The position numbers and the translations under genes were made by a program. Below are positions 35,495-39,246 of a DNA stretch of 64,000 nucleotides, piece after piece. Source of the stretch: Oscillatoriaceae cyanobacterium M7585_C2015_266. Lineage in GTDB: Bacteria > Cyanobacteriota > Cyanobacteriia > Cyanobacteriales > Oscillatoriaceae. Location: assembly GCA_015295835.1 (NCBI GenBank), contig DVEG01000015.1, positions 124,001 through 188,000 of the forward strand, in the 5' to 3' direction. Positions within the stretch are counted from its first letter, which is position 1, and each line of letters opens with the position of its first letter. A model generated the notes under the pieces. The model had not been told where the DNA came from, searched no databases, and worked only from the letters and a program-made list of their open reading frames with translations.

Positions 35495-37336
35495 TTATCT
35501 ATACTGATCCTCTATTATCCAGCTATTTTTTCCTGCCTCCCAAACCAGTAAGAAACGTTTAGACTCTGGGCTTACTCTTCCGTCTTTCATCAAGTATGTT
35601 AATTCTACATCTACAACAGCTGATTCAGTGCCGGATTCTACTAATTTGACTTGCTGCAAGTCTACGCGTTCGACTTTTTCCCACCAGTCTATATAAACAT
35701 CATAACTATCGGCGGAATATTTTTTTTGGAAGTTGTGAGAAAGCATGTTCCAACCTATTTCGTACTGGCGGTTATTAATGATATTTGAGTAGTAATTTTG
35801 CACTGCATCGGCTGGTGATTCTTTAGGTTTAGATGGTGTAGCAGGCTCACGCTCTTTTCTGTCAGCTATTGTATTCTTATACAAGACTTCAACACTCACT
35901 AGATATTCTGAAGCGGTGGGCGAGGATATTTCTACTACATAATCTCCTGTTTCTGGCAGTAAACCTTGCCATTGCATATTGCCTGCGATCGCTTCTCCAA
36001 TTGTTTGCCCATCGGGAGCAATAATTGTCACGTTCACATTTCCTTGCAACACCGAAACCGTAAACTCTTGCCCTTCTATACTTCTAATTAAATAACGCTT
36101 TTTTTGATTTGTTTGTATGCTGCCGCTTAGCTTTGTTCCGGTAGCCCCCCGTTTAAAATAAACTCGCTCTGTTGTGACAATTGGCTCAGAATTTGGTTCT
36201 GTTATTTCTGGTGTTTTCGTCGCAATAATTGGCTCTGGCGAGCGCCTTTTATCAAAAGAATCTTGGGCTTTATCCGGTTGATTTGTTATTATATCATTCG
36301 GAACTAACGGCGATTTCGGGCGTATCGCAATTATCACACCTGCAAATACTGCCGCACCAATCAATCCTCCAATCAGAGCAGACACATACCAATTTCTCAT
36401 ATTCATCTGCCTAGGTGGAGGAATTGGTACAGGTACGCTACAGTCAGGAGAAACGGCAACAGTCTCCATATTAGAAATATTCGCTGTTGCCACGGTTACA
36501 GTAGGCGGCATAGCTTGCGACTGGAGGGCGGCGAGCATTTCCCGCGACGTTTGGTAGCGATGGGATAAATGATACTGAATAGCCCTATCCAGCACTGCTA
36601 TTAACTGCGGAGTTATATTGTAAGCGTGCTGGTGCCAGATTATTTCGCCGCTGCGGGGGTTTACTTCTAATTCCTGCGGTAGCTTGCCAGTTAGCAGATA
36701 AATCGCCGTCATCCCCAAACTGTACAAATCACTGGCATAAACAGGTTTGCCTACTGCCTGTTCTGGGGGCATAAATCCAGGAGTGCCTATAACAATAGAG
36801 TTGGTAGGATTCCCCTGGGTATTAAGCTTTGTCCCCATTGTTTCTTTAACTGCGCCGAAATCGATTAATACTGGCATGCCATCGCGGTTGCGCAGGATGA
36901 TATTGTCTGGCTTGATATCTCGGTGAATAATACCTTTGTTGTGAATGTAATCTAGCACCGACAACAGGCTGGTTAAAATATCCCGTACTTGGGGCTCGCT
37001 CAGTATTCCCTGGGTTTTTACTTTTTGCAAGAGGGTTTCGCCTTCGATCCATTCTTGAATTAAATAAAATTGTCCGCCTTCAGAAAAATAAGCATATAAT
37101 TTAGGTATCTGGCTATTTCCCTCACCTAAATCTTCTAATACAGCCGCTTCTCGCTGGAACCGCTCTAGAATTAGCTGATACCTTTGGGGATCATTATTAA
37201 CTGGTTTAAGTTGTTTGATAACACAGGGGCGAGAAGAAGGCATATGGGTGTCTTCTCCCAAATAAGTTTCGCCAAACCCGCCTCCTCCCAGTTTGCGGAT
37301 AATGTGATAGCGATTGTTTAAAAGTGTCGGTGCCAT
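35495..37336 (-). CDS. membrane-anchored serine/threonine protein kinase
   Basis: The 613-residue protein has an N-terminal Hanks-type kinase domain (about 8-275): Gly loop LGGGGFGETYLG, Lys41 (VIKQLKP), catalytic HRDIKPDN (Asp140) and DFG (159-161) with GTPGFMPPEQ in the activation loop. One membrane helix (about 315-338, MRNWYVSALIGGLIGAAVFA) follows. Outside are a PPC-like beta domain (about 390-470) and an NTF2-like C-terminal domain (YYSNIINNRQYEIGWNML, DYDVYIDWW region). The order suggests a sensor kinase with an extracellular ligand-binding part. Targets are unknown; an FHA-domain PBP is encoded about 10 kb away. Confidence 0.93.
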   Translation of the reverse strand: MAPTLLNNRYHIIRKLGGGGFGETYLGEDTHMPSSRPCVIKQLKPVNNDPQRYQLILERFQREAAVLEDLGEGNSQIPKLYAYFSEGGQFYLIQEWIEGETLLQKVKTQGILSEPQVRDILTSLLSVLDYIHNKGIIHRDIKPDNIILRNRDGMPVLIDFGAVKETMGTKLNTQGNPTNSIVIGTPGFMPPEQAVGKPVYASDLYSLGMTAIYLLTGKLPQELEVNPRSGEIIWHQHAYNITPQLIAVLDRAIQYHLSHRYQTSREMLAALQSQAMPPTVTVATANISNMETVAVSPDCSVPVPIPPPRQMNMRNWYVSALIGGLIGAAVFAGVIIAIRPKSPLVPNDIITNQPDKAQDSFDKRRSPEPIIATKTPEITEPNSEPIVTTERVYFKRGATGTKLSGSIQTNQKKRYLIRSIEGQEFTVSVLQGNVNVTIIAPDGQTIGEAIAGNMQWQGLLPETGDYVVEISSPTASEYLVSVEVLYKNTIADRKEREPATPSKPKESPADAVQNYYSNIINNRQYEIGWNMLSHNFQKKYSADSYDVYIDWWEKVERVDLQQVKLVESGTESAVVDVELTYLMKDGRVSPESKRFLLVWEAGKNSWIIEDQYR

Positions 37337-37398: not shown

Positions 37399-39246
37399 CT
37401 ATGGCTTTTTCAGGGTGGGCGGTAGTAATTTCCAAAACGGTTTTTCTGTTGCTTGGCGGCGAGTATTTATGGCGGAGTGGGTATTGCCTCTAAGTTCATG
37501 ATAGTAGCGAGCGTCGAGAAAATGAACTTTTAGTTTAGAAGGGGCTATGCGTTCGCGAAATGCCTCCTGGGTATAATCTTTACCATTGATAATAGCGCCG
37601 CGAGGATCTGACACTAGCAAATGCCCATTTACTTCTACCGAGTTTACCATATTTGGCCACCAGGAATAACCGCCGTACCCAAACATTGCTGGAATTGGGA
37701 TTATTTGTTCGTCTTTCAGATTGAATTCTTTTTTTAGTTTAACGATAATGGGATTGACATTTTCGCGTTGTAATTTTAAATTATATTCTATCAAATTTTT
37801 GTTATTCAGCGCCGCCTCTACAGTAGTTTGTTCTTTCAGTTCCCGATTTATTTTTGCTTTCCCATATCCTTTATAAAAAAGTTCTTTTAGGAGATTTACG
37901 CCTGCTTCTGGGCTTACAACCAACATCAATGGTGTTCCGGAAGGAGTAGAAATAAAGTTAATTACTTCGTCTACATGGCGAATCATTAGCCAAGATGTAT
38001 CGATTTCGACTGGCGTACCTTGGATTTCTTGCGCTTTTATAAAATCTAGCACCTCTGGATGAAAAGAAACGCTGCCTGCTTTGCCGTAATAAATACGCCC
38101 TAGTGGAAAGCCGGGTAAAGGTGGTGTTACTTGTAAATTTCCGTAGCCATCTATCCATTGGTTGAAAACATCTAATTGGCGGGGCTTGCTTATTTCAAAC
38201 CAGCCAAAGTCATTATTTAAAAGCGAGCGCGCGTTGCTCTTGAGGTGGCTTTCTAAAACGACGCTGAAATTTTGTAAACGCGATTGATTAGGAAATTGAA
38301 CATAGCCTATTTTCATAGTATCTTGCATCCAAGTATTGCCTCCAGGCACCACCTGCACTGTTGTGTTGATAGATGACGCAATAGCTCGAATTTGGGAGAT
38401 AAATTGGCTGTTGTTTTTACCGCGATCGCTTACATACATTTCTACAACGGGTGCTGTATTTGGTAGCATAATCCAAGGGCTGACGCGCATTTTAATTGTA
38501 TCTTCGGCAACGATTTTGCCATCTTGTATAGCCAGAGCCTTTAGCCTCAGTAATCCATTCCAATCTTTATTAGCAAATTGTTTAGCCTCTACACCAAAGA
38601 GGATGTCACGATTATAGGCGAGCGCGCTTTTTCCGTCAGCATTTACCAATTTCCATCCCCCCTCATCTTTCTGAAAAATATTAATATATGGACTAGCTTT
38701 TTCGTCTGCTTCCAGCACTAACTTAGCCTTAGCAAAATTTGAGCCAACCTTGAACTTTAGTTTTGCTAAATCTTCAATATCTTTATCGCCATTAATTAAT
38801 TTATCTTGCCAATCAAGACTTTTATTTCCATCATCATCATCATTGTTAAAAAGTATAATTGCACCTTTTTTCCAATTCCAATAATGACGTTTAAAATAAT
38901 CTTTTGTATCTAGTATACCATCTCGATTGGTATCGCCAAAAAGGATAAAAGTATTTTTCTCGCCTGCATTGGTTGTTTCTAATTCTGCCGAAAGTATCTC
39001 ATAGGGTTGTAGTAGTATATTGGATGGGTAGGAATCACCGTAGAAAATCAAATCCCCACCAGTGGCGCAGTGATTGATTACATTCGGCAAGAGATTTACT
39101 GTAATAAGAGATTGTGAAGGTAATTGCTTTTGCACCAGCGCGCAAGATGCAGGCGGAGCAATAATAATAGGAGTATTAGTCAACTCCATGCCTGCTAACA
39201 TGCCGATTGTAGTAGCCAGAGTGCGCGCCCACCGAATTTGGTGCAT
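37399..39246 (-). CDS. peptidylarginine-deiminase-like protein with Ser in place of catalytic Cys
   Basis: The C-terminal half matches the protein-arginine deiminase catalytic domain: TWMQDTMKIGY (Asp309), WLMIRHVDEVINFI (His424, Asp426), SDPRGAI and GNTHSAINTRR. In active enzymes the last motif is HC; here codon 591 (37474-37476) is TCC, so the nucleophilic Cys is Ser. The N-terminal half has a hydrophobic export segment and two Asp-rich loops like EF-hand calcium sites (DTNRDGILDTKD, NDDDDGNKSLDW). Family enzymes convert Arg to citrulline in Ca2+-dependent fashion; this one is predicted inactive or altered. Animal PADs are thought to descend from cyanobacterial ones. Length is 615 residues. 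Confidence 0.85.
   Translation of the reverse strand: MHQIRWARTLATTIGMLAGMELTNTPIIIAPPASCALVQKQLPSQSLITVNLLPNVINHCATGGDLIFYGDSYPSNILLQPYEILSAELETTNAGEKNTFILFGDTNRDGILDTKDYFKRHYWNWKKGAIILFNNDDDDGNKSLDWQDKLINGDKDIEDLAKLKFKVGSNFAKAKLVLEADEKASPYINIFQKDEGGWKLVNADGKSALAYNRDILFGVEAKQFANKDWNGLLRLKALAIQDGKIVAEDTIKMRVSPWIMLPNTAPVVEMYVSDRGKNNSQFISQIRAIASSINTTVQVVPGGNTWMQDTMKIGYVQFPNQSRLQNFSVVLESHLKSNARSLLNNDFGWFEISKPRQLDVFNQWIDGYGNLQVTPPLPGFPLGRIYYGKAGSVSFHPEVLDFIKAQEIQGTPVEIDTSWLMIRHVDEVINFISTPSGTPLMLVVSPEAGVNLLKELFYKGYGKAKINRELKEQTTVEAALNNKNLIEYNLKLQRENVNPIIVKLKKEFNLKDEQIIPIPAMFGYGGYSWWPNMVNSVEVNGHLLVSDPRGAIINGKDYTQEAFRERIAPSKLKVHFLDARYYHELRGNTHSAINTRRQATEKPFWKLLPPTLKKP

Follow-up and report, generated by a model that had tools for sequence, protein, structure and literature searches.

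A probably exported PAD homologue without its nucleophilic cysteine and Ca1 glutamates in an Oscillatoriaceae cyanobacterium

Introduction

For human peptidylarginine deiminase PAD4, the ligand list in PMC5445078 assigns Q349, E353 and E411 to the Ca1 site, E351, D369 and N373 to Ca2, and N153, D155, D157, D165, D168, D176, D179, E252 and D388 to Ca3-Ca5. The mutagenesis passage of the same paper reports that the Ca1 triple mutant Q349A/E353A/E411A keeps about 0.1% of wild-type efficiency, with folding and dimerisation as in the wild type.

Human PADI6 is the closest described case of a PAD without its nucleophile. According to the structural passages of PMC11402830 and PMC11067741, it carries Ala676 at the position of C645 and A362 and M420 in place of the Ca1 glutamates; it is not stabilised by Ca2+ and is inactive in vitro. 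Among cyanobacteria, the section of PMC8826395 on cyanoPADI presents the protein of Cyanothece sp. 8801 as an active calcium-dependent enzyme, belonging to a three-domain clade near animal PADs.

Here we analyse a PAD gene from Oscillatoriaceae cyanobacterium M7585_C2015_266, found in a 64,000-nucleotide stretch of contig DVEG01000015.1 (the window). We put at roughly 75% the probability that it encodes a presumably exported or membrane-anchored, non-enzymatic pseudo-PAD whose function is still under selection. Pseudo-PADs were previously known from PADI6, and our search of CC-licensed PubMed Central found no bacterial one in titles or abstract openings; what is probably new is their occurrence in bacteria, in all readable rows of one clade and, by a probable second origin, in the window's lineage.

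Results

The window encodes a true PAD homologue

The gene lies on the minus strand at 37399..39246, an intact open reading frame of 615 amino acids; all features below are on the same strand. The product is a true PAD homologue, since Pfam, phmmer and a structure model agree on it, and the initial annotation had family, strand and length right. Pfam places PAD_M (PF08527) at residues 104-236 (38539..38937; E 1.6e-10, 41.3 bits for a cut-off of 24.8) and the pentein catalytic domain PAD_C (PF03068) at residues 247-606 (37429..38508; E 1.8e-64, 218.6 bits for a cut-off of 25), while phmmer matches human PAD4 with E 3.6e-52. There is no Pfam match to PAD_N in the protein; Pfam also misses this domain in the three-domain clade Ai, as stated in the domain description of PMC8826395. 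Both domains found here, PAD_M and PAD_C, occur in cyanoPADI of Cyanothece sp. 8801 as well, a protein set beside ours by its description and not by its sequence. NCBIfam gives no match for this PAD or for two others that lack the nucleophile.

The AlphaFold2 model, made with 40 sequences, reaches pLDDT 82.4 and pTM 0.80; its weak parts are residues 1-94 (pLDDT below 50) and the blocks at 331-350. Human PAD4 is its best match among solved structures (Z 43.7, 1.9 A, 490 residues, 30% identity), and PADI6 is also matched (8ql0 with Z 37.3, 9fmn with Z 36.9). The model is closest to ligand-bound PAD4, but loop 331-350 has a pLDDT of only 68-72.

The protein begins with a hydrophobic segment suited to export or anchoring, residues 1-35 (39142..39246), which ends in APPASC. 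Its only cysteines, Cys35 and Cys60, both recur in the five family rows shown. Judging from this N-terminus and the two cysteines, the protein is probably exported or membrane-anchored.

The nucleophile is replaced and the Ca1 site dismantled

Three members of the catalytic tetrad named in the initial annotation are indeed present: Asp309 (38320..38322), His424 (37975..37977) and Asp426 (37969..37971) pair in the alignment with PAD4 D350, H471 and D473. The nucleophile C645 is aligned with Ser591, whose codon at 37474..37476 reads TCC on the minus strand, which confirms the replacement of the cysteine reported there; the best-matching PDB chain carries Ala at this position. A compensating cysteine can be ruled out: the catalytic domain holds none, and the sole cysteines, 35 and 60, lie outside it, so the idea that another one takes over the nucleophile's role fails. 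As H590 is kept together with D309, H424 and D426, a partly working guanidinium pocket is possible.

Two Ca1 ligands are lost: Lys312 (AAA, 38311..38313) replaces the glutamate E353 of PAD4 and Gln372 (CAA, 38131..38133) replaces E411, with the third, Q349, kept as Q308. The loop of residues 328-340 (38227..38265) is four residues shorter and lacks the conserved arginine equivalent to R374 of PAD4, which we take to have a role in substrate binding; this column is conserved in the Cys-containing rows of the window's clade and is a gap in the window protein. Beside the Ca1 loop, Gly367 (38146..38148) stands for a conserved tryptophan.

From 34 PADs of the window's clade that contain Cys, counting redundant rows, we derived a set of 79 conserved columns. 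The window protein leaves 70 of them unchanged and alters nine (E312K, the loop Arg, D336K, W367G, E372Q, P411T, P433S, C591S and T593I). By the same count, 11 Cys-keeping family rows, among which some genomes are present in two collections, show no change or one each; among distant Cys rows on long branches, a few change 4-6 columns and L104 changes 10. The catalytic, Ca1 and substrate-loop segments, drawn post hoc, hold 7/9 of the changed columns versus 22/70 of the unchanged ones (one-sided Fisher p 0.010).

The remaining calcium sites fare differently. Both of the EF-hand-like loops pointed out in the initial annotation are present; their positions mark them as the Ca6-like and Ca3-Ca5 sites proper to the PAD family and not as separate EF-hands. 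The first, residues 105-116 (DTNRDGILDTKD; 38899..38934), has D105, R108, G110 and D116 invariant in A1, and is called Ca6-like on the basis of the Ca6 substitutions described in a passage of PMC8826395. The second, residues 134-159 (38770..38847), corresponds to the Ca3-Ca5 cluster; 9/9 PAD4 ligands that could be mapped from the list in PMC5445078 are kept, including E220 and D346.

We dropped Ca2 as an additional loss. The E351 position holds Thr or another residue, never Glu, in the window's whole clade, and the N373 position is variable in Cys-keeping rows (GNR, GIR, GLR). Since Cys-keeping relatives share both traits, Ca2 gives no argument for inactivation.

Compared with PADI6 as portrayed in the cited structural passages, the window protein likewise keeps the PAD fold and the Asp/His/Asp residues and has lost the nucleophile and the Ca1 glutamates, with different replacing residues. 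Unlike it, PADI6 is intracellular, in oocyte cytoplasmic lattices, and has a loop blocking the site and cysteines flanking its Ala; 8/16 of its calcium ligands are unconserved and none of its Ca1-5 sites is intact, whereas the mapped Ca3-5 ligands persist in the window protein. The absence of E351 is general in the window's clade, and Ca2 hence does not count as a common loss. PADI6 is an imperfect guide because of those flanking cysteines, and we infer that the losses in the two proteins were independent.

A related clade lacks the cysteine in every readable copy

PF03068 was found in 25/386 genomes of the phylum. Our row set unites searches of the order (30 loci kept), a named genome collection (71 loci) and ten of twelve further stretches fetched for their PADs, and came to 77 rows, 74 of them different. 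Rows more than 97% alike, 11 short pieces and the two-frame loci L143 (Ala) and L150 (Cys) were left out, and twelve distant loci, all with Cys, also stand outside the set. Matches of the order search were read in part, hence "all" denotes all rows examined.

The window's family comprises 8 genomes with one PAD each. The other seven keep the Cys and both Ca1 glutamates (E353, E411), and the window is alone among the eight in having lost these glutamates and the loop Arg. Its Cys-keeping family members, such as that of Oscillatoria sp. PCC 10802 (L061), are 57-61% identical to it and share its domains, the Ca3-5 ligands and the hydrophobic N-terminus with two cysteines; what sets them apart is that the nucleophilic Cys, the loop Arg and the two Ca1 glutamates are present.

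Position 591 is readable in 76/77 rows, with Cys in 26 and another residue in 50. The latter are the window and 49/49 readable rows of one related clade, which have Ser, Thr, Asp, Ala or Met; outside this clade the window is the only one of 27 rows without Cys. The clade (hereafter the dead clade) counts 50 rows once the unreadable L089 is added, has support of 100/99 and includes Planktothrix, Microcoleus, Tychonema, Kamptonema, Okeania, Trichodesmium, Hydrocoleum and relatives. In the phylum search, 11 genomes of the dead family turned up, and each carries a single PAD.

Read at sites 309/424/426/590/591, the dead clade is heterogeneous: G-H-D-Y-S in Planktothrix (T in one row), D-H-D-H-D in Okeania/Trichodesmium, E-N-D-H-S in Kamptonema, D/N-Q-D-Q-S in Microcoleus, and D-H-S-Y-T, D-Q-D-N-A and E-H-D-H-M in single rows. 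Like the window protein, these proteins have lost the nucleophile; Microcoleus also shares its E353K, W-to-G, E411Q and C-to-S changes. Unlike the window, they form a separate clade, have an N-terminus about 140-300 residues longer (as in the Cys-keeping L010 and L027) and lost D309, H424 or H590 in many rows. Two further differences are group-specific: Microcoleus pseudo-PADs have lost most Ca3-5 ligands, and the Ca1 glutamates survive in all but a few Okeania and Kamptonema rows.

The full pair of Ca1 glutamates is present in 25/26 Cys rows (the remaining one has E-to-D) versus 14/50 Cys-less rows; because of these 14, the loss of Ca1 is not always tied to that of Cys. Only two independent pairs bear on the association of the two losses, which therefore cannot reach significance.

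Cyanobacteria being the proposed source of animal PADs, the initial annotation had linked this gene to that origin, a link that proves misplaced. Rows from cyanobacteria with scores like those of animal PADs (491-535 bits for PF03068, versus about 190-242 in the window's own clade) are only 29-31% identical to the window protein and branch apart as a separate supported clade; "animal-like" is here a label by PF03068 score, in a tree of no animal sequences.

Several loci show other forms of change. L142 and L143, of the same genus, are pseudo-PADs with Ala for Cys; the gene of L143 falls into two overlapping frames, and genes in this genus may thus decay until broken. A Cys-keeping PAD is split into two frames (433 + 255 aa) in Baaleninema simplex PCC 7105 (L103/L150), and in L015/L022 a PAD that scores like animal PADs and has the HC motif is broken by in-frame stops. 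Furthermore, in many genomes of family f2 a separate protein, with frames mostly of 440-460 aa, gives a weaker second match to the N-terminal extension of these dead proteins (model positions ~15-122; E ~1e-17 to 1e-20).

The cysteine was likely lost separately in the window's lineage

Parsimony requires two changes at the Cys position. Two PAD trees computed without the trait columns group the window with its Cys-keeping family (support 97/94 and 99/93). The housekeeping proteins Pgi and RluD place it in the same family (85/94), with the dead-PAD family not forming one clade there, and genome kinship does so too; forcing the window with the dead family on the Pgi/RluD data gives an AU p of 0.089. 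An AU test of all dead PADs as one clade gives p 0.038 with 81 rows and 0.238 with 77; on these values the window's lineage is likely, though not proven, to have lost the Cys on its own.

Codon 591 is TGC or TGT in all 49 Cys rows (redundant rows included) and TCC in the window. In the dead clade it is AGT, AGC or ACT in Planktothrix, GAT in Okeania/Trichodesmium, TCT in Kamptonema and TCG, TCA or TCT in Microcoleus. Since a single step does not lead from a TCN to an AGY serine codon, the Cys may have been replaced several times independently inside the dead clade.

An AU test rejects (p 7e-5) a grouping of the window with the 24 rows of Microcoleus type; K312, G367, Q372 and S591, common to both, are for this reason best read as convergence. 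We also rejected recombination with a Microcoleus-type gene: in most 45-residue stretches the window protein is nearest to its own family. As exceptions, Kamptonema is nearest at 250 and 580 and Planktothrix at 400, and there are ties with Okeania (340, 400, 490, 520) and Microcoleus (520 only); no stretch has Microcoleus in the lead. A short gene-conversion tract is possible as the source of the four shared residues.

Selection and alternative explanations

A codon model run over 519 codons and 14 taxa with a custom script estimates omega at 0.138 for the window branch and 0.108 for the background, a difference that is not significant (2dlnL 1.06); omega = 1 on the window branch is rejected (2dlnL 42.3). 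This value cannot date the loss of Cys, because the long branch averages the time before and after it. Within the dead clade, omega is 0.071 in Planktothrix (8 rows), 0.099 in Okeania (10 rows), 0.136 in Kamptonema (3 rows) and 0.150 and 0.191 in Microcoleus (7 and 12 rows), and three Cys-keeping groups have 0.170, 0.085 and 0.097. Pairwise NG86/YN00 estimates for 10 pairs, 7 of them in dead clades, range over 0.04-0.24. Given their low dN/dS, the dead PADs of the related clade are kept by purifying selection.

The source genome, a draft of 35 contigs, measures 3.98 Mb at 98.5% completeness versus 6.4-8.6 Mb in family members at least 95% complete, and is therefore strongly reduced. A profile search of it returns a single PF03068 match, this gene, and no second, intact PAD. 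Its retention in such a genome, the intact reading frame and the window-branch dN/dS of 0.14 would all fit a function that is still selected.

The gene might instead come from a recently inactivated enzyme and be turning into a pseudogene, its Ca1 site and substrate loop having decayed neutrally once the Cys was lost. Such decay would suit the window's position as the sole Cys-less member among the 8 family genomes, its slightly long end branch (0.38-0.40) and the division of L143, a related dead copy, into two frames. Against it stand the uninterrupted 615-residue frame, the 70/79 conserved columns and 9/9 mapped Ca3-5 ligands that are kept, the rejection of omega = 1 and the purifying selection seen in other dead clades after the loss. 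We consider this course of events unlikely, if still worth weighing.

That Ser591 might be a new nucleophile in a hydrolase with another reaction or substrate, as the initial annotation had allowed, now appears very improbable. Serine is chemically the nearest nucleophile, it also occurs at this position in Planktothrix, Kamptonema and Microcoleus rows, and D309, H424, D426 and H590 are kept; yet the loop Arg has disappeared, as have both Ca1 glutamates. Nor does Ser appear to be a preserved nucleophile, since in the dead clade the position varies (D, T, A or M as well) and D309 or H424 is often lost.

Finally, a base-calling or assembly error hiding a true Cys is scarcely credible: TCC is one base from TGC and the evidence comes from one draft genome, but a single error could not account for the 9/79 changed conserved columns and a four-residue deletion, and the Ca1 glutamates would be missing even with the Cys restored.

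The initial annotation's other proposal, a pseudoenzyme or binding protein, gains support from these comparisons: the Ca1 glutamates and loop Arg are gone, the catalytic domain is without Cys, and the related dead clade is under purifying selection.

Discussion

On our preferred reading of the gene as a pseudo-PAD, the protein would be unable to citrullinate: it lacks the nucleophile, and the calcium site responsible for ordering its cleft has been taken apart. Its role may instead be that of an extracytoplasmic binding protein or scaffold, comparable to the part played by PADI6 within the oocyte. Lys312 and Gln372 might replace the Ca1 ion itself, holding the cleft loops in place without calcium. 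The window would then be one case of a wider trend, the related clade being dead in every readable copy examined.

More tentatively, and with somewhat less than even confidence, we suggest that the main role of the exported PAD in filamentous cyanobacteria is not citrullination, that the activity was lost at least twice, and that a lysine at the Ca1 site makes the protein an ordered extracytoplasmic scaffold or ligand binder. The losses would fall at the base of the Planktothrix/Microcoleus/Trichodesmium group and in the window's lineage, with several lines also losing the Ca1 activation site. The same Glu-to-Lys and Glu-to-Gln exchanges in the window and in Microcoleus could mean that a lysine sits where the ion was, leaving the protein permanently ordered with no need of Ca1.

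On this reading, these PADs would offer a bacterial parallel to PADI6. The natural series from active-looking enzyme to dead protein lets one ask what a PAD does without citrullination, the question raised for PADI6. Annotation, too, calls for caution: such genes, in relatives of Trichodesmium and Planktothrix among others, should not be assumed to encode citrullinating enzymes.

Gene neighbourhood

A Ser/Thr protein kinase gene (35495..37336, minus strand) lies 62 bp downstream of the PAD gene. A kinase also adjoins the PAD in L042, L061 and L043 and does not in L041, L152 and L153; in the remaining loci of the 20 checked, no match was found to a whole kinase beside the PAD. We therefore rejected a conserved PAD-kinase operon: adjacency is confined to part of the family and lends no support to a function. 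The window kinase has a stretch in common (48-49% over 96 aa, or 31% over 221 aa) with proteins encoded downstream of Microcoleus-type pseudo-PADs (L074:9763-10722, L076:12384-13805 and L066:10216-11151), three proteins that no Pfam family matches.
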